Source: a virus. From it: DNA of 23,639 bases. This document shows, piece by piece, positions 2,139 to 18,214 of this stretch. The translations under genes and the position numbers were made by a program. The notes under the pieces were generated by a model, which did not search any database, was not told where the DNA came from, and saw only the letters and a list, made by a program, of their open reading frames with translations. How positions within the stretch are numbered: position 1 is the stretch's first letter; the number at the start of each line of letters is the position of its first letter. The stretch lies in the IMG/VR virus record IMGVR_UViG_3300035228_002458, positions 1 to 23,639 of that record; one strand, given 5' to 3'.

Positions 2139-2266
2139 AAGTAAAAGAAAAAATAAAAGACATTGTTACAACGGCTTTATACTATACTTCACTCGCCTGG
2201 TTCGCAGTAACAGTGGCAGTATTAGTGGCAGGATTTGCTTGGGCTATATATACTTACACAAAATGA
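2135..2266 (+). CDS. Single-pass small membrane protein
   Basis: 43 residues. A basic N-terminus (MKVKEKIKD) is followed by one long hydrophobic segment (about residues 18-39, SLAWFAVTVAVLVAGFAWAIY). The gene overlaps both neighbours by ATGA (2135-2138 and 2263-2266), a strong sign of real translational coupling. Inner-membrane location is inferred; function unknown. Confidence 0.6.
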   Translation: MKVKEKIKDIVTTALYYTSLAWFAVTVAVLVAGFAWAIYTYTK

Positions 2267-2430
2267 AAAATAAACCATATCAACCTCGTAGAACACAAGA
2301 AGTTCAAGACGAAATCGACAAAAAGATTGCACAGTTCAAAAAAAACTCAGCCGAATTTGCCAAACGGGAACCATTTCCGTTTGCTGGAGGGCCATCTTGG
2401 GCCTCACCGGCGCCTAGGATCGTTAAATAA
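2263..2430 (+). CDS. Small basic hypothetical protein
   Basis: 55 residues. A charged helix (TQEVQDEIDKKIAQFKKNSAEFAKRE) is followed by a Pro/Gly-rich tail (PFPFAGGPSWASPAPRIVK). ATG at 2263 is chosen because it overlaps the preceding stop as ATGA; a longer version starting upstream would run through the membrane-protein gene in another frame. Function unknown. Confidence 0.6.
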   Translation: MKNKPYQPRRTQEVQDEIDKKIAQFKKNSAEFAKREPFPFAGGPSWASPAPRIVK

Positions 2431-2435
2431 AACTA

Positions 2436-3284
2436 ATGAGAATTCTCTGCAAAAGTAGGCTTCTGCACCACCATAAAGCAATAAATGCTTTTACGTATGG
2501 TTTACAAAAATCTAGTAAGGCAGATATTGATTATTTTGATCACAATAATTTGCCTACAGGAAAATATGATTTTGCTATTTGTTGGGGTTTGAGAGCTATG
2601 GAGAAATTAAAAGCGTACACCAAAACTAAAAATTGTTTAGTGTTTGAAAACGCATATTTAAATAATGTTCAATCTGTAGAAAAAGAGTGGGTGTCTTTAG
2701 GTTGGAATGGCCTTAATGGTAGAGCTGATTTTTGCAATAAAAATTCACCAGCCGATCGTTGGAAAAAACACTTTGATAATGGTAGATTAAAGGAGTATAC
2801 TGACGGTGATTATATTCTCATTCCTCTTCAGATTCAAGGAGACCAATCCCTTAATTACATTTGGAGTAGCGTGTTAAACTACCAATACATTTGTGAGACT
2901 ATTCGTAAATTCACTGATATTCCAATTGTAATTAAGGATCATCCTACATTCCCAGGATCTCAACCTGAAGTGAAAGGCATAAAAAACTTAAAATATATTG
3001 ACACTAACATGCCAATTGAGAAAGCCATTTCTAAAGCAAAGGTTGTAGTGACAATTAATAGTAATGCTGGAGTTGATTCTATATTAGGCGGAAAACCAGT
3101 TGTTTCTCTCGATAAAGGTTCTATGGTGTGGAACATATCTGCGAACGACTTAAAAAGTATAAATACTCCTAAGTTTTACGACAGAATACAATGGTGTAAA
3201 GATATTGCTTATGCTCAATGGCATCCAAGAGAGCTAAAAACCGGAGAAGCCTGGGATCATTTAAAGAGTAAGCTCAAACTTTAG
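2436..3284 (+). CDS. Putative GT-B glycosyltransferase, KpsC/KpsS-like
   Basis: 282 residues. Elements reminiscent of the capsule polysaccharide transferase family (KpsC/KpsS-type, GT-B fold) are: ILIPLQIQGDQS (127-138), IVIKDHPTFPG (164-174, compare the family K-x-HP), and VVTINSNAGVDSILGGKPVV (204-223, the sugar-nucleotide-binding half with a Ser/Asn-x-x-G helix cap and GKPV). The N-terminal third (residues 1-110) would be the acceptor half. In phages such enzymes modify DNA bases or host/virion surface sugars; which applies here cannot be told. No signal peptide is seen, so it is cytoplasmic. It starts five bases after the previous stop. Confidence is good for a GT-B-like fold and moderate for the subfamily. 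Confidence 0.6.
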   Translation: MRILCKSRLLHHHKAINAFTYGLQKSSKADIDYFDHNNLPTGKYDFAICWGLRAMEKLKAYTKTKNCLVFENAYLNNVQSVEKEWVSLGWNGLNGRADFCNKNSPADRWKKHFDNGRLKEYTDGDYILIPLQIQGDQSLNYIWSSVLNYQYICETIRKFTDIPIVIKDHPTFPGSQPEVKGIKNLKYIDTNMPIEKAISKAKVVVTINSNAGVDSILGGKPVVSLDKGSMVWNISANDLKSINTPKFYDRIQWCKDIAYAQWHPRELKTGEAWDHLKSKLKL

Positions 3285-3286
3285 TA

Positions 3287-3315
3287 TTTACAAACCACAA
3301 AAAATACAGTATAAT
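3287..3315 (+). promoter_or_regulatory. Sigma70-like promoter (TTTACA-N17-TATAAT), leaderless
   Basis: TTTACA at 3287-3292 and a perfect TATAAT at 3310-3315, spacer 17. The ATG of the next gene is at 3322, only six bases after the -10, so transcription should start at or very near the A of the start codon. Confidence 0.7.
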
Positions 3316-3321
3316 ATCATC

Positions 3322-3582
3322 ATGAACACAGAAAAGGTAGTAATCGACACTCTCGGTAATGACAAATTTATAATGCAAGATTATAAATACAATGACGAAT
3401 CTGTTATATCAGCAAAGGTCGCATATCAACACTATTTTAACTGTGACCACAAGTTACTGCCAATTCACTTTACTAAAAACGCACTCGATGAAATCCAAAA
3501 CGCAATTGAAGATGAGCTCGTTAGACAAGAGGAATCTAGCGCGGCATCCTATGCCCCGACCAACGCTAAAATTTTCCGATAA
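3322..3582 (+). CDS. Hypothetical early protein
   Basis: 86 residues, acidic in the second half (HFTKNALDEIQNAIEDELVRQEESS). No family recognised. It has its own promoter, predicted to give a leaderless mRNA, and is the first gene of a short transcription unit with the membrane protein at 3603 and the ParB-like gene at 3757. Confidence 0.65.
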   Translation: MNTEKVVIDTLGNDKFIMQDYKYNDESVISAKVAYQHYFNCDHKLLPIHFTKNALDEIQNAIEDELVRQEESSAASYAPTNAKIFR

Positions 3583-3602
3583 GAAAAAATTGCGATCTAA
3601 AA

Positions 3603-3773
3603 ATGCGTGCCGTTCTAAAAAGAATCCAATTTGAGGTTATTTTTGCCATACTAGTTGTCATAGGCATTCCAATATTTTTACTCATGACTTATTGGAATGT
3701 GACAATCGATATGTTTAAAAAGGCACCTTCTGAACTTGAAAAAATTGTACGAAGTTATGTCTACGGAGATTAA
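3603..3773 (+). CDS. Single-pass small membrane protein
   Basis: 56 residues. A basic N-terminus (MRAVLKRIQFEV) leads into a hydrophobic stretch (about residues 12-30, IFAILVVIGIPIFLLMTYW), then an amphipathic charged tail (MFKKAPSELEKIVRSYVYGD). The 3' end overlaps the start of the next gene by 17 bases in another frame. Function unknown; topology by inference N-in. Confidence 0.5.
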   Translation: MRAVLKRIQFEVIFAILVVIGIPIFLLMTYWNVTIDMFKKAPSELEKIVRSYVYGD

Positions 3774-4203
3774 AATATTAAAGTCTGAATATCCATTAGA
3801 GTGGAATGGGTTTGAGGTCCGTGAACTTCCTGTAGAAGATATTTGGCAGTCCGTCCCTGTTGCTGAAAATATTGCTGGTAAACCATTTTATTCTAGAGTA
3901 AAGGCTGATATCAAAACAAACGGAATGCATTTTCCAATTATGTGTGTTCATACAAATTATAGGACTCTTGAAGAAGCAAAGGAAAGGTGGAGTAAAAAAA
4001 TAAATGAATTGCCTTTTTGGCACAACACTTTGGGTAAACATAAAAAAATGGTTTGGAGTGTGTGGGGTGGATCTAACCGACTAGCTATAGCGAAAGATAT
4101 TGGCTATACGCATATTGACGCAGCAGTCCTTCCGTCAATTGGTAAGGCTATTAGTATGCAAAAATGGATGAGGAAACCCTTTGAAGATACTTATTATAAA
4201 TAG
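3757..4203 (+). CDS. ParB/sulfiredoxin-like domain protein
   Basis: 148 residues. The segment SRVKADIKTNGMHFPIMCV (46-64) followed by VWSVWGGSNRLAIAKDIGYTHIDAAVLP (99-126) matches the layout of the ParB N-terminal/sulfiredoxin-like fold, in which G-x-x-R-L-x-A-A-x-x-x-G binds nucleotide. Phage proteins with this fold include nucleases and DNA-associated proteins, so a DNA-linked role is plausible but unproven. A TTG at 3736 would add seven residues; ATG at 3757 is preferred. The last codons TAT AAA TAG spell the late promoter used by the next gene. Confidence 0.55.
   Translation: MSTEIKILKSEYPLEWNGFEVRELPVEDIWQSVPVAENIAGKPFYSRVKADIKTNGMHFPIMCVHTNYRTLEEAKERWSKKINELPFWHNTLGKHKKMVWSVWGGSNRLAIAKDIGYTHIDAAVLPSIGKAISMQKWMRKPFEDTYYK
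4195..4202 (+). promoter_or_regulatory. T4-type late promoter TATAAATA
   Basis: Exact match to the T4 late -10 octamer recognised by the gp55 sigma factor. It is embedded in the Tyr-Lys-stop end of the preceding gene. The next ATG is only seven bases beyond it. Confidence 0.65.
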
Positions 4204-4209
4204 AATATT

Positions 4210-4470
4210 ATGAGCGAACTATTTGATTTTGGATTTACAGCTGTTGACGAAACTGAACTTAATTCTTACCAGAAAGCAGAAGCAAAGGTAGAAGAAACAG
4301 AAGCAGTAGCTGAAGCAACACAGAAAAAGATCGATGATCTTTATAATGCTATACAGCCTCTTTTAAACAACCTTAAAGCGAACCCAGAAAAGGAGTATAT
4401 CCTATGGCCTAATCGCTTAAAAAAGGTTGAAGAATTTGAAAAATTTCTTTACGACATTTATAAGTCGTAA
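4210..4470 (+). CDS. Small conserved T4-like phage protein
   Basis: 86 residues. An acidic N-terminus is followed by a coiled-coil stretch (about residues 20-45, KAEAKVEETEAVAEATQKKIDDLYNAI) and LLNNLKANPEKEYILWPNRLKKVEEF. From memory, small proteins with a NPEKEYI-WPNR motif are conserved in T4-like phages of marine bacteria; their role is unknown to me. A late promoter precedes it almost directly. Start ATG has the AATATTATG context. Confidence 0.65.
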   Translation: MSELFDFGFTAVDETELNSYQKAEAKVEETEAVAEATQKKIDDLYNAIQPLLNNLKANPEKEYILWPNRLKKVEEFEKFLYDIYKS

Positions 4471-4502
4471 AGCATTGAAGAAAAAAAAATAAAATATATT
4501 AT

Positions 4503-5279
4503 ATGAAAAACAAAAAAACACTAAGCATCACCGCACTCGTTATTGGTCTATTCGCCATTAGCATGCCTGCGGTGCAGTCAGAAGAGACTCCTGAAATCGT
4601 AATTTGCGAGGCTACAAAATGTAGTAAAAGCGTCATTTGTGACCTTGCTAATGGATTTGACTTGTTTCTTACTAAGCCAATCGGACTAGTTTCTGAAGTT
4701 GGTTTTTTCGAAGAAAGGATCGATGGAGGTCTATTTACACATTCTGATGCTCTTTTTGTTAAAGCAAAAGGCACAGTCGGAACTGTGTATGGTAAGAATT
4801 TGGTAACATCTTTGGAGTTTGCAGATGGTCAAGGGGATTCATTCTTTGGCGGATTTGTTGGTCTTGAAGATGATAGCAAATATGTAGGAGCAAGGCTCGG
4901 AACAAATTACGCTGACGGAGACCTCAGTGGTGATACTGATCTTGAACTCAATTTTGGAATTGTTGGATTGCCATTGCCATTGCTCAAAGGAGTTTATGTA
5001 GGAGTTGATTGTGCTCTTGTTTCAGGAGGAGGCTACGATGTTTCACTAAATGTTAAACGCTCTATTGGAACATTCTTTAATGTCGATGTTACGGCACTTG
5101 GAGAAGTTGGAAAAACATGGGATTATTCAGACAATTATGAATACGTCCTTGGAGCTCTTCGAGGCTCGTACAATCTTTATGGTGGAACTCTATATGGTCA
5201 AGTTAGCTCTGTAGATAACGAAGTTCAAACCGATGGATTTGAAAGCGTATTCCAAGTTGGTTATACCTTGTCGTTTTAA
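4503..5279 (+). CDS. Predicted outer-membrane beta-barrel protein
   Basis: 258 residues. A signal peptide is clear: MKNKKT, hydrophobic LSITALVIGLFAISMPA, likely cleavage after VQS. The mature part has two Cys pairs near its start and then repeated alternating hydrophobic/polar strands with Gly turns (VGARLGTNYADGD, LELNFGIVGLPLP, GVYVGVDCALVSGGG, LRGSYNLYGGTLYGQV), ending VFQVGYTLSF, the C-terminal Phe strand typical of Gram-negative outer-membrane barrels. A phage-encoded barrel can mask receptors or exclude superinfection, but that is inference. A strong terminator follows, so it ends its transcription unit. Confidence 0.65.
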   Translation: MKNKKTLSITALVIGLFAISMPAVQSEETPEIVICEATKCSKSVICDLANGFDLFLTKPIGLVSEVGFFEERIDGGLFTHSDALFVKAKGTVGTVYGKNLVTSLEFADGQGDSFFGGFVGLEDDSKYVGARLGTNYADGDLSGDTDLELNFGIVGLPLPLLKGVYVGVDCALVSGGGYDVSLNVKRSIGTFFNVDVTALGEVGKTWDYSDNYEYVLGALRGSYNLYGGTLYGQVSSVDNEVQTDGFESVFQVGYTLSF

Positions 5280-13900: not shown

Positions 13901-14800
13901 ATGTCATTCGAACAACTAAAACAAAACCGTGAAAGCGAGATTTCTAAACTCGTTTCTGCCGCTGATACAAACACCGAAAAAAAGTCATATGGCGATGATC
14001 GGTTGTGGAAGCCAACTGTCGACAAAGCGGGAAACGGCTATGCCGTTCTTCGTTTCTTACCAGCTGGTAGTGGCGAAGATCTTCCCTGGGTACGATACTG
14101 GGATCACGGCTTTAAAGGACCAACTGGGCGTTGGTATATTGAAAGGTCTTTGACTTCAATTGGTCAGCAAGATCCAGTTTCTGAATTAAACTCACAGCTT
14201 TGGAATACAGGCCGTGATGAAGATAAGGAACTTGCTAGATTGCGTAAGCGTCGTCTACATCACGTTTCAAACGTGCTTGTCGTTTCTGATTCTGCTAATC
14301 CGCAAAATGAAGGAAAGGTTTTTCTTTATGAGTATGGTAAGAAAATCATGGATAAAATTATGGATGTTATGCAACCACAATTTGAAGATGAAAAACCAGT
14401 CAACCCATTTGATTTTTGGTCAGGTGCCAACTTCAAATTGAAAATTCGGCAGGTAGAAGGTTATCGCAATTATGATAAATCTGAATTTGATACCCTTACT
14501 CCTCTCTTTGATGGTGATGAAGGTCAACTCGAAGAAGTATACAACAAAGTTTATAAGCTCAGTGAATTTACTGATCCTGAAAACTACAAATCATATTCGG
14601 ATCTTAAGCGCAAGTTGTTTGAAGTTTTAGGCGAAGCTGAAGTTGCTTCTACAATCTCAACAGAGCAACAGGTAGAGCTTAACACTGTGAAGGAAGCTCC
14701 TGATATGAATTCAGTTTCTAATGAAGACACTGCTGATTCTACTTCAGAAGGTGACTCAGAAGACACTCTCAGCTACTTTGCTAAATTGGCATCTAGCTAA
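13901..14800 (+). CDS. 32: gp32-like single-strand DNA-binding protein
   Basis: 299 residues (T4 gp32 is 301). Motifs in order: basic N-terminal cooperativity segment (SFEQLKQNRES), LWKPTVDKAGNGYAVLRFLPA, GRWYIERSL, RLHHVSNVLVVSDSANPQNEGKVFLYEYGKKIMDKI, NPFDFWSGANFKLKIRQVEGYRNYDKSEF, and an acidic C-terminal tail (EDTADSTSEGDSEDTL) that in T4 recruits partner proteins. It coats single-stranded DNA during replication, recombination and repair. The T4 zinc site is not kept: the region of the T4 CPVC reads DPVS (residues 91-94). Own promoter and an A-rich leader upstream. Confidence 0.93.
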   Translation: MSFEQLKQNRESEISKLVSAADTNTEKKSYGDDRLWKPTVDKAGNGYAVLRFLPAGSGEDLPWVRYWDHGFKGPTGRWYIERSLTSIGQQDPVSELNSQLWNTGRDEDKELARLRKRRLHHVSNVLVVSDSANPQNEGKVFLYEYGKKIMDKIMDVMQPQFEDEKPVNPFDFWSGANFKLKIRQVEGYRNYDKSEFDTLTPLFDGDEGQLEEVYNKVYKLSEFTDPENYKSYSDLKRKLFEVLGEAEVASTISTEQQVELNTVKEAPDMNSVSNEDTADSTSEGDSEDTLSYFAKLASS

Positions 14801-14813
14801 ACTACATAAGATA

Positions 14814-15188
14814 ATGAAAAATAAATTAATTACACTAATCGTTGCATCTCTCACAATGGGAGTTTGCGCAGCTGACCATCACAGTAAAGATGGAAAACAC
14901 AAAGCAAAACCTGCAAAGGTCGATGGCAAGCGTAAGCTTCCTCCTCATATGGCCAAGTTCGATAAGAATAAAGATGGTAAACTTTGTGATGCAGAGAAAG
15001 CGACAGCCAAAGCGGCTTGGGTCAAGCGATTCGATAAGGATGGCAATGGCAAAGTTGAAGGTAAGGAGCTAGCTGCAGCTAAAAAAGCTATGGCAGAGCG
15101 TCGTAAGAATGCTCAAAAAAATAAAGGCAAGGGCAAGAAAAAGCCAGCGCCAAAAGGTGGTAAAAAGCCTGCTCCTAAGAAGGGCTAA
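14814..15188 (+). CDS. Secreted EF-hand calcium-binding protein
   Basis: 124 residues. A signal peptide (MKNKLITLIVASLTMGVCA, cleavage near residue 19-20) is followed by a His/Lys-rich segment and two EF-hand loops: DKNKDGKLCDAE (50-61) and DKDGNGKVEGKE (74-85), both with Asp at 1 and Glu at 12. The last 35 residues are a Lys/Pro/Gly tail (KGKGKKKPAPKGGKKPAPKKG). Such small exported EF-hand proteins with basic tails are common in Verrucomicrobiota and Planctomycetota and unusual in phages, so acquisition from a host is likely. It would act in the periplasm or outside the cell. It lies 13 bases after gp32 and ends a transcription unit. Confidence 0.8.
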   Translation: MKNKLITLIVASLTMGVCAADHHSKDGKHKAKPAKVDGKRKLPPHMAKFDKNKDGKLCDAEKATAKAAWVKRFDKDGNGKVEGKELAAAKKAMAERRKNAQKNKGKGKKKPAPKGGKKPAPKKG

Positions 15189-15199
15189 TACATATAAAA

Positions 15200-15212
15200 C
15201 ATAATACTAGTA
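15200..15212 (+). repeat. 13-base element before terminator, copy 2
   Basis: CATAATACTAGTA, identical to 8167-8179 and in the same position relative to a hairpin between convergent genes. Confidence 0.35.
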
Positions 15213-15213
15213 G

Positions 15214-15237
15214 AGGGGTGGCTGAAAGGTCACCCCT
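15214..15237. terminator. Hairpin between convergent genes, probable terminator
   Basis: AGGGGTG (15214-15220) pairs with CACCCCT (15231-15237), loop ten bases. It lies between the EF-hand gene and the tape-measure gene, which converge here. Only a weak T-rich run follows on the plus strand (TATTAGTTATTTT). Confidence 0.65.
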
Positions 15238-15243
15238 TATTAG

Positions 15244-16665
15244 TTATTTTCCAGCTTCCAGCGCGTGCTTTAAAGCACCTGTGCTAATGCTATTATTATT
15301 AGTGCTGAAGTTATAATTGTTAATAATATTGTTAGTTGGTACTACGCCGTTTCTAACCTTATCTTGCTGCATTTGCGGAAGCTGCTTAGGTTTATTCTTA
15401 AAAAACATATCCTGAAGTGGCGTCTTATTTTTGTAGTTTTCTTTCAAATCTATTGCATTTGGATTCCTTGCATTCGGACCGACATCCTTCGTCTTTCTTT
15501 TTATTTCGGGCAATCCAAGTTTATCTGCAATCTTTTCTCCGATATCAGCAAAAAAGTCTAATACCCCTTTTGCAATGTCATTAATTTTATCACTTATTTT
15601 TCCTAAAACATCTGAACCAAACAAGTCTTTCACATAAGCCATAATTAATTCAAAAGGAACTAACAGAGCTTTTTTGATTCCTGTCCATATTCCGAGGAGA
15701 CCTTTCCCCATTTTTTCACTATCCCATGTGAAAATGCCAACTACTAAATCAATTAACCCGCCAAACACATCTTTAACGCTTTGAATAACATTTTCTGTTT
15801 GTTCACCTATTGCTTTCGCAAGATTGTCAAATCCTAACCATTCAGCAATCTTAGTTGGTATCCACATTAGTATTCGGAGGAGGCCGCCCACTAATCCATC
15901 GAATACATCCATAATACCTTGCTTAATACCTTCTATAATACCGCCTTCTTCATAGCCACGCATGAAACCTTTAACAAAATCGAATATGCTCATGAGAATA
16001 GTGATAGGCAAAAACACTTTACCTAGTATTCGTCCAATGGATCCAGCAAATTTCATGATTGCTTTAAACGGACCACCGGTTGCAAACTTTACGATTTTTC
16101 CAAAAATTTCAGCCAATCTTTTAAAAAATCCACCCTTTCCGCCAAACACTTTTTGAAATAAGCTGCTGATCGACTTAAATAATTTTGTATTTTTAATTTT
16201 GCCGATAATGTTGCTAATAAATTTGCCTAGCTTACTGTTTTTGAGACTTTTAAATATATTACTAAATACCGCTCTAAACTTTTGTTTAAAATTCTTTAAC
16301 CATATTGCGGCTTTTCCTTTCGTAAAGAAGTTGAGCTCTCTACCTAATTGACCAAGGAAGCCGACAAAGGCTGCGAATGGAGCTAGAAGCAATCCCAAGC
16401 CTAATCCCAAAAGCTTACTAAGACCACCATCAGTTTTAGGAATTAGACTTTTTAAACCTTTGAGAAGAGAATCACCAAGTCCCCTAATACCATCTGCTAT
16501 ATCTTGAAACAAGGCTTTTTGCTCAATACTTTTTTCAAGCTCCTTAAGATCATTTTTTTTCTGTTGATCAACAAGAGGTTTTGCGATGTCTTTTGAATTT
16601 TGAATCGCAACTTTTTGAGTTACGTCTTCAAGATCTTTTCTTGTTACAAATTTATCTTCAGCCAT
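15244..16665 (-). CDS. Tail tape measure protein (gp29-like)
   Basis: 473 residues. A charged helical N-terminus (MAEDKFVTRKDLEDVTQKVAIQ) is followed by repeated Leu/Phe/Lys amphipathic helices (FRAVFSNIFKSLKNSKLGKFISNIIGKIKNTKLFKSI), several membrane-like segments (LLGLGLGLLLAPFAAFVGFL; VFLPITILMSIFDFV; LVGGLLRILMWIP) and a polar Asn-rich end. This is the pattern of tape measure proteins, which set tail length and are ejected during DNA entry. It is shorter than T4 gp29 (590), which predicts a shorter tail of about 70 nm at 1.5 angstrom per residue. It comes after the gp26/gp51-like chaperone and its frameshift ORF, which overlaps its start by eight bases. Confidence 0.8.
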   Translation of the reverse strand: MAEDKFVTRKDLEDVTQKVAIQNSKDIAKPLVDQQKKNDLKELEKSIEQKALFQDIADGIRGLGDSLLKGLKSLIPKTDGGLSKLLGLGLGLLLAPFAAFVGFLGQLGRELNFFTKGKAAIWLKNFKQKFRAVFSNIFKSLKNSKLGKFISNIIGKIKNTKLFKSISSLFQKVFGGKGGFFKRLAEIFGKIVKFATGGPFKAIMKFAGSIGRILGKVFLPITILMSIFDFVKGFMRGYEEGGIIEGIKQGIMDVFDGLVGGLLRILMWIPTKIAEWLGFDNLAKAIGEQTENVIQSVKDVFGGLIDLVVGIFTWDSEKMGKGLLGIWTGIKKALLVPFELIMAYVKDLFGSDVLGKISDKINDIAKGVLDFFADIGEKIADKLGLPEIKRKTKDVGPNARNPNAIDLKENYKNKTPLQDMFFKNKPKQLPQMQQDKVRNGVVPTNNIINNYNFSTNNNSISTGALKHALEAGK

Positions 16666-16843
16666 TGTTTTGTTGTTGTCTTAGTTCTTCTTCTTTAATG
16701 TGGTTTTTTAAAAGTGTAATATAAATCTCCCTTTCCCATGGAATCATATTATCAAGTTCTGTTAAGCTGTATTTGTGGTGCTGTACAAGCGAGAATTGAA
16801 CATGATAATAGTTTTCTAATGAGTTATGAGAAAGGGCTAGGCG
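16658..16843 (-). CDS. -1 frameshift extension of the gp26/gp51-like chaperone
   Basis: This ORF has no ATG, GTG or TTG before its midpoint. Read after a -1 slip on the TTTTTTC heptamer it starts RLALSHNSLENYYHVQFSLVQ and ends HHKYSLTELDNMIPWEREIYITLLKNHIKEEELRQQQNNG: 61 codons, with TGA at 16658-16660 overlapping the tape-measure start. The predicted fusion is 293 residues (232 of the first frame plus 61). It matches the G-GT organisation of other tailed phages, where the short and long chaperones coat the tape measure during tail assembly. An internal ATG would give only about 29 residues. The YSLTELDNMIPWEREIY motif looks conserved, from memory, in T4-like marine phages. Confidence 0.75.
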   Translation of the reverse strand, partial: RLALSHNSLENYYHVQFSLVQHHKYSLTELDNMIPWEREIYITLLKNHIKEEELRQQQNNG

Positions 16844-17538
16844 AAAAAATCACCAAGACCACTTAAGATCTTTGTTCTCTCTTTACCCTGTGAACATTTG
16901 AATTTAATTTCCTTTTTAAGCGTTGGTATACTATCAACCCACTCTTTTATTTTATTAACCTGCTCGCTGCTCAATGAATCAATAAAGGTTTCTATTTCCT
17001 TTGGTTCTGCTTGCGCAAAAGGATATACGTTATCAGAATCATACACACTTTCGATTACACTCGAAAGTGATTGAACAATAGAGTTGTTTTGCTTATTATT
17101 TTTAGCTGCTTTTTCAGCTTCTTTAAGCCCGGGAGCTTTAAGTGTTATACCAACATCATCAGTTAGTTGCACTTTGTTTTCCTTTTCATTTTCCTTTGAA
17201 ACTTCTATTTCTGAAAGATCTATTGTTAATTCTATAATTTCGTCACACTCGTCGCATTTAAATCTAATTTCAGAAGTTTCGCCGACACTCTTTGAACGAA
17301 TTTGTAGTAAAATATACTCAAGATCGCTCATAGCTAACGAATAAATGTCCAATGCACCGAATGTACATGACTTTATTACGTCTTTCATCGCTGAAATCAT
17401 ACTTTGATTAGTTCCTGCTTCTTGTGCAATCATTAAAACCTTTTCCTCTTTTACAAGAAATGGTCTAAACTCAAGTGATTCGTTTGTTGATGGAATAGTT
17501 AAGAAATATTTAGGTGATTCAATTGTTGGTAATGCCAT
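16837..17538 (-). CDS. 26: gp26/gp51-like baseplate hub or tail chaperone
   Basis: 233 residues in the first frame. The N-terminus MALPTIESPKYFLTIPSTNESLEFRPFLVKEEKVLMIAQEAG and FKCDECDEIIELTIDLSEIEV (with CxxC) fit the T4 gp26/gp51 baseplate family. In T4 these proteins help assemble the hub and are not structural; here it may also chaperone the tape measure encoded just downstream. The start at 17538 is used rather than 17550, which lies inside the late promoter. The gene ends with GDFFA, five codons in which the slippery heptamer leads to a longer frameshift product. Distinguishing gp26 from gp51 is not possible by eye. Confidence 0.75.
   Translation of the reverse strand: MALPTIESPKYFLTIPSTNESLEFRPFLVKEEKVLMIAQEAGTNQSMISAMKDVIKSCTFGALDIYSLAMSDLEYILLQIRSKSVGETSEIRFKCDECDEIIELTIDLSEIEVSKENEKENKVQLTDDVGITLKAPGLKEAEKAAKNNKQNNSIVQSLSSVIESVYDSDNVYPFAQAEPKEIETFIDSLSSEQVNKIKEWVDSIPTLKKEIKFKCSQGKERTKILSGLGDFFA
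16843..16849 (-). promoter_or_regulatory. -1 frameshift slippery heptamer TTTTTTC
   Basis: In the gp26/gp51-like frame the bases read GA-T TTT TTC GCC TAG. T TTT TTC fits the X XXY YYZ consensus of -1 slippery sites with the correct phase, and the first stop follows two codons later. Slipping back one base joins the frame of the 61-codon ORF. Confidence 0.75.
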
Positions 17539-17557: not shown

Positions 17558-18214
17558 TTATATTAGCCGCTGCAGTACATTAAGCCTGTTGCTAGTACTA
17601 TTTATCATCGATCTAATAGGTGGCTCAACCTCAAAGAAATCGTACGTCATGTTCACACTCACTGATGCCACAGCGTCTGTATTGGCGTTAGAAAGATCTA
17701 TACTGTTTACAGCTGTAGGATAAGCATCTCTTAAGCGAACAGCATATACTGGTGTATTGTCTTTATCTAGTTCTTGAATAAAAACGTCTGTTTTATATTT
17801 GTCATCATAAGATACTAGTTGTGATGTTTGATCAACAATAGAATTTTGCCACGTATCAAATGTCTTCTTAGCATAAAAATCATTTGTGAGTAAAAAGGTA
17901 AATGCCACATCTTCTTGAATAGAGCTCTGCGGGTATTTTCTTGGATTGGCTCCGTACGCATCATAATCACCTGTCATAATTAGTTTGCCCGGCAAAGAGC
18001 AGGACTCACATAGTATGTTTATGTCCCGCGGATCATTAACTAATGGCCCATCACCAAGTAAAGCTCCTAGGTTTAATAGGCCTGCCGTTGGAGGTGTAAT
18101 AGTAATAGCAAATCTATTTGTAGTAGCTATACCACCTCGTTTACCAACAGTTGATTTAAACTCGTCAATCGTGACTGGGTTGATTGTATTTTTAATATCG
18201 TTTAGTAGTCCCAT
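17558..18214 (-). CDS. Tail tube-fold protein (gp54/gp19-like)
   Basis: 218 residues. It has the layout of the tube/initiator fold: RFAITITPPT, ILCESCSLPGKLIMTGDYDAYG, RKYPQSSIQEDVAFTFLLTNDFYAKKTFDTWQNSIVD, a long middle, VSVNMTYDFFEVE. LCESCSLPG and the ...FDTWQ... stretch fit gp19/gp54 of T4-like marine phages (from memory). gp19 forms the tail tube, gp54 the tube/baseplate initiator; the length (218, versus T4 gp19 163 and gp54 320) does not decide between them. It lies in a baseplate/tail gene run, six bases after the unknown protein. Confidence 0.7.
   Translation of the reverse strand: MGLLNDIKNTINPVTIDEFKSTVGKRGGIATTNRFAITITPPTAGLLNLGALLGDGPLVNDPRDINILCESCSLPGKLIMTGDYDAYGANPRKYPQSSIQEDVAFTFLLTNDFYAKKTFDTWQNSIVDQTSQLVSYDDKYKTDVFIQELDKDNTPVYAVRLRDAYPTAVNSIDLSNANTDAVASVSVNMTYDFFEVEPPIRSMINSTSNRLNVLQRLI

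Follow-up and report, generated by a model that had tools for sequence, protein, structure and literature searches.

The tail region of the viral DNA analysed here, a stretch of 23,639 nucleotides from a marine T4-like phage, hereafter called the window, raises the question of how one short gene ahead of the tape-measure gene might yield two proteins, as its frame closes on a stop codon just where a second frame, open but start-less, runs on in the -1 phase. All of the features concerned lie on the minus strand, where PHROG and Pfam assignments give the order tail tube, TAC-N, TAC-C and tape measure (TAC, tail assembly chaperone). The gp26-like gene encoding the short form, TAC-N (16837..17538, 233 aa), matches Pfam PF12322 T4_baseplate (E 2e-55) and PHROG 150 at positions 6-232 of 282. 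Its upstream neighbour is a tail tube gene (17558..18214; PHROG 45, E 1e-34, with a weak PF06841 match), which places the gp26-like gene and the -1 ORF between tube and tape measure, the latter encoding 473 aa at 15244..16665 (PHROG tape-measure matches, E 4e-9 to 1e-8). The -1 extension, TAC-C (16658..16843; 61 codons plus TGA), is assigned to the gp51 C-terminal domain on the basis of PHROG 634 and dN/dS. A similar gene order is found in Melnitz, S-PM2, HTVC008M and S-SSM5.

Three further features of the surroundings were noted. In Melnitz (3908-4237) and HTVC008M (3900-4232), the -1 extension is followed by an extra ORF of ~110 aa before the tape measure begins; the window does not have it. 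The tape-measure protein of the window is short, a lineage trait and not a truncation, because the closest relatives have tape measures of 445-525 aa, with others reaching ~930 aa or more. A terminator-like hairpin (GGGGTGACC...CCACCCC, 15205-15238) separates the tape-measure gene from a small convergent ORF on the plus strand (14721-15188).

The gp26-like gene ends GGT GAT TTT TTC GCC TAG, with a T_TTT_TTC heptamer (16843..16849) in the X XXY YYZ phase needed for a -1 slip, as an earlier note on this DNA had recognized, and the frame-0 stop TAG at 16837-16839; the gap between them is 3 nt (GCC) and not the five bases given in that note. A heptamer by itself means little, since the ORFs of the window hold 46 in-phase XXXYYYZ heptamers in about 6,084 codon positions; the gp26-like site is the sole T TTT TTC within 2 codons of a stop among them. 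The expectation that relatives would keep the heptamer was borne out, with an in-phase TTTTTTN lying 0-9 nt before the stop in 327/327 loci (138 non-redundant at 90%, as some contigs occur twice under different locus ids; statistics were computed on sets filtered at 70% or 90% identity). These comprise a first set, in which an HMM search placed the gene in 179 of 180 loci and each single-gene locus has TTTTTTN in phase 0-9 nt from the stop, and 158 further loci added later, all of which keep the heptamer (158/158). The ORFs without it in the first set number 17, and all are gp26 or gp51 of T4-group phages. When the loci are grouped at <70% identity, 43 of 43 clusters retain the TTT codon and, before it, the wobble T (P about 10^-18.8, given the phages' own codon usage); this T belongs to a codon for any of four residues, S, D, N or A.

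This degree of conservation is decisive against chance, and a -1 programmed ribosomal frameshift signal is expected to have just such a heptamer, in X XXY YYZ phase and kept more strictly than codon usage would explain. A sequencing error or a decaying gene is ruled out by the 327 loci. An upstream Shine-Dalgarno-like stimulator is plausible in some lineages (GGAGGGA); the window has none (AGTGGTC). In Melnitz (3684-3700) and HTVC008M (3690-3706), gp26 ends in TTTTTTTT immediately before TAA, so that no codon separates the heptamer from the stop.

Of the signal as first described, the heptamer and the -1 ORF stood, and a downstream RNA stem had been missed. The 126 nt that follow the slip site fold with a mean z of -2.76 in 80 loci relative to a synonymous null, in which codons were drawn from each phage's own usage, compared with -0.63 for a control stretch of the same genes. 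Against the same null, pairing is depleted at nucleotides 1-6 past the heptamer (t -5.8, 80 non-redundant loci) and enriched at nucleotides 7-12 (t 14), with its peak at nucleotides 7-18. In the window, the depleted segment is a 6-nt spacer, GCCTAG (16837..16842), which contains the frame-0 stop codon. The putative stem would therefore begin within the spacing of 5-9 nt after the heptamer published for -1 frameshift signals (PMC5009743). Short folds of the 66-83 nt after the slip site show no structure (z above 0); the structure appears only when a distant arm is included.

For the window lineage, unsupervised RNAalifold run on 36 sequences aligned without gaps returned a single helix, P1, of 11 bp, in which CCCUUUCUCAU (16826..16836), starting 6 nt after the heptamer, pairs with AUGGGAAAGGG (16729..16739) and closes an 86-nt loop. 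P1 cells are paired in 91%, falling to 38-63% when the helix is slid, and two-sided changes number 24 compared with 12.2 after shuffling (0/500). The wobble bases of a Leu and a Glu codon covary across the helix (22 U-A, 10 C-G, 2 U-G and 2 C-A; Fisher 1.5e-5), and a control with other Glu codons gave no covariation (p 0.43). The Arg of the PWERE motif in the 3′ arm is coded AGG in 30/37 sequences, as opposed to 20/254 for other Arg codons. The pairing is also conserved in 50 held-out loci, which form 8.08 of 9 P1 pairs where 6.20 are expected, the wobble pairs being 15 U-A, 29 C-G, 4 C-A and 0 U-G (Fisher 3.5e-9). About a third of the sequences do not keep the outermost pairs of P1, the helix is weak in some members, such as HTVC008M, and part of the conservation of the arms is protein-driven, as they overlap conserved protein motifs. 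An inner helix in the fold of the window, UAUUAUCA/UGAUAAUA, does not look intact in relatives such as L017, and the consensus fold lacks it, so it is left out of the proposed structure. Other lineages have different stems at the same spacing, for example a 14-bp hairpin in S-PM2. The corresponding region of T4-group gp51 has no such RNA structure, so the protein sequence alone does not produce the stem. On this comparative evidence, a conserved long-range RNA stem appears to help the slip.

The stem could have another purpose beside a real frameshift, such as control of tape-measure translation or mRNA stability, given that about 65 nt separate its 3′ arm from the tape-measure start downstream and that its stimulatory role is a presumed one. 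We consider this unlikely, because the position of the structure is fixed relative to the heptamer, with a 6-nt unpaired spacer and nucleotides 7-18 paired across the 80 loci, because the same position is kept in lineages whose stems are local and quite different, and because the structure is missing where there is no frameshift. For the stem as a stimulator of the slip, we lean towards a signal of three parts, heptamer, 6-nt spacer and stem, in which, from lineage to lineage, one stem has given way to another several times, always at the same position. The 11-bp stem of the window lineage could then stay folded around its 86-nt loop because few ribosomes enter the loop, and such a stimulator would be one undescribed before.

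The product of a -1 slip at this site would be FF-RLALSHNSLENYYHVQFSLVQHHKYSLTELDNMIPWEREIYITLLKNHIKEEELRQQQNNG*, with 61 codons beyond the slip. Translation and coordinates bear out the earlier description of a continuation that ends eight bases inside the tape-measure gene: the TAC-C TGA (16658-16660) lies inside the tape-measure ORF, which starts at 16665, an overlap of 8 nt. The two forms predicted from the frames are a short one of 233 aa and a fusion, TAC-NC, of 293 aa. TAC-C matches PHROG 634 'baseplate hub assembly catalyst' (gp51) with E 4e-28, and tblastn with the extension returned 757 phage records. It is also correct, as had been claimed, that no ATG, GTG or TTG precedes the midpoint of the -1 ORF; the only one is an ATG 92 nt past the stop, beyond the midpoint. 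In the first 30 codons, ahead of this ATG, dN/dS is 0.12 for the -1 frame and 1 or more for the other frames. Every locus of sufficient length for the test has an open -1 frame, as had been anticipated, and no ordinary start codon turned up at a position common to relatives in the 43 clusters: the position of the first start codon varies widely from cluster to cluster, which is what one would see if none were used. Judged by its substitutions, the -1 extension is under protein-level selection ahead of any start codon common to relatives, and the locus has a coding -1 frame, placed as a C-terminal extension without a conserved start of its own, as is characteristic of tailed-phage TACs.

GenBank records annotate the small ORF as a separate gene ('gp51', 'baseplate hub assembly catalyst'), and in many relatives there is indeed an ATG, 50 or 53 nt beyond the stop, from which it could be translated by reinitiation after the gp26 stop. 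Each record, however, uses a different start, there is no common start position, and in the closest relatives of the window the only constant start would cut off about half of the C domain, even though the residues preceding it are strongly selected. A separate gene would also leave the heptamer unneeded and is at odds with T4-group gp51, a single chain joining both parts; we regard it as highly improbable.

T4-group phages encode the same N+C fusion as a continuous protein, gp51, in agreement with the fusion proposed in the earlier note. In T4, JS10 and 44RR, gene 26 consists of the N domain alone and gene 51 of the N and C domains in one chain, and T4-group gp51 matches PHROG 150 at residues 3-250. 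The gp26 proteins of T4 and JS10 end in Phe-Phe coded TTC TTT, with no heptamer, and the T4-group phages with separate short (gp26) and fused long (gp51) genes have lost it. The window departs from this two-gene arrangement: its one gp26-like gene is extended in the -1 frame. Genes 26 and 51 stand back to back on opposite strands in JS10 (2230-3656) and T4 (3303-4729), and the short and long chaperone genes of these two phages look as if they were the products of an inverted duplication. In PMC3004832, T4 gp26 and gp51 appear as hub assembly chaperones.

A structure model of the N domain (mean pLDDT 87) has as its best solved-structure match the HK97 tail assembly chaperone 2ob9, with Z 7.5 and rmsd 3.8 over 82 residues, where the notes of the structural aligner warn that a Z under 8 can be a common arrangement. 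The match takes in about 84 of 232 residues and the next one has Z 2.6; Foldseek gave 2ob9 a weak rank, with probability 0.10. We take the model as moderate evidence that the N domain has the TAC fold. A search of PDB sequences with the family profile found nothing meaningful. The earlier suggestion that the gp26/gp51 family acts here as the G-GT chaperone gains support from the conservation of the signal, the T4 fusion and the HK97 fold match.

Formation of the two forms by RNA-polymerase slippage on the T run, a site of 6-8 T, is very improbable, as the run usually has only 6-7 T, short for polymerase slippage, and is interrupted by C in 175/327 loci, and as the strict codon phase and the stem 6 nt downstream fit a ribosomal signal. 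Very probably, the gene yields two forms of tail assembly chaperone by a -1 frameshift of the G/GT type, promoted by the downstream stem. Most ribosomes would stop at the TAG and release the 233-aa TAC-N, and a minority would slip back one base on U UUU UUC, where the Phe-Phe tRNAs would re-pair, and read on beyond the stop to give the 293-aa TAC-NC with its extra 60-residue gp51 C-terminal domain. The stem, lying 6 nt past the slippery site and at the mRNA entry of the paused ribosome, would promote the slip; in the window lineage this would be the helix of CCCUUUCUCAU with AUGGGAAAGGG across the 86-nt loop. By analogy with lambda G/GT, the tape measure should be coated by both forms, and the C domain should recruit the tail tube.

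In 2022, Vladimirov and colleagues reportedly described both the frameshift in T4-like phages and its split into genes 26 and 51. Papers citing that work (PMC12846349, PMC10274946) credit Vladimirov, Gautam and Davidson (Virology 2022, 566:9) with identifying gp26/gp51 as tail assembly chaperones, and state that poly-T slip signals occur in the TAC-N genes of T4-like phages, some of which instead have one gene for the short form and another for the fused long form. By these accounts, the remark in the earlier note that T4-type phages are not generally cited for the frameshift is out of date, and the kind of system is not new, with the frameshift already published for T4-like phages. A 2016 review still excepted T4 from tail chaperone frameshifting. 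Cyanophage and vibriophage gp51 were seen to lack about 200 N-terminal residues (Sullivan et al. 2010), which the frameshift would supply. We found no description of the downstream stem in the literature, in which Vladimirov 2022 was represented by the papers citing it, and the conserved stem, which begins 6 nt downstream of the heptamer, may be a new element.

On this reading, hundreds of genomes of cyanophages, pelagiphages and vibriophages carry a 'gp51' annotation, as a tiny gene of its own, for what would be the C-terminal half of a product made by frameshifting. Should the stem truly act as a stimulator, these phages offer a natural series in which one structure is exchanged for another at a constant distance from a single slippery site, and the series could be used to measure how the kind of stem determines the ratio of the two chaperone forms.

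The T4-like gp26/gp51 of Vladimirov 2022 belong to the same protein family as the proteins of the window (PF12322, PHROG 150 and 634); relative to those TACs, as the citing papers present them, the window represents a marine metagenomic lineage, with the downstream stem described here. Lambda G/GT shares with the window the gene order (tube, G, T, tape measure) and the logic of a short form and a rarer -1 fusion (PMC5009743); the slip heptamer of lambda and its efficiency (ratio about 30:1) may differ from those of the window, and the likeness lies in gene order and logic. The TAC of Vandenendeviridae/Andersonviridae, represented by phage Adele (PMC12846349), has a conserved T-rich slip site, GTTTTT, an open -1 frame and a small ORF misannotated as a gene, as here, but comes from different phage families, and the passage on it in that paper mentions no RNA stem. 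Distant pairing aids the -1 slip in barley yellow dwarf virus and IS3411 (PMC5009743), as proposed for P1; those structures are loop-loop or ALIL pseudoknots, whereas the window has a plain stem closing an 86-nt loop.
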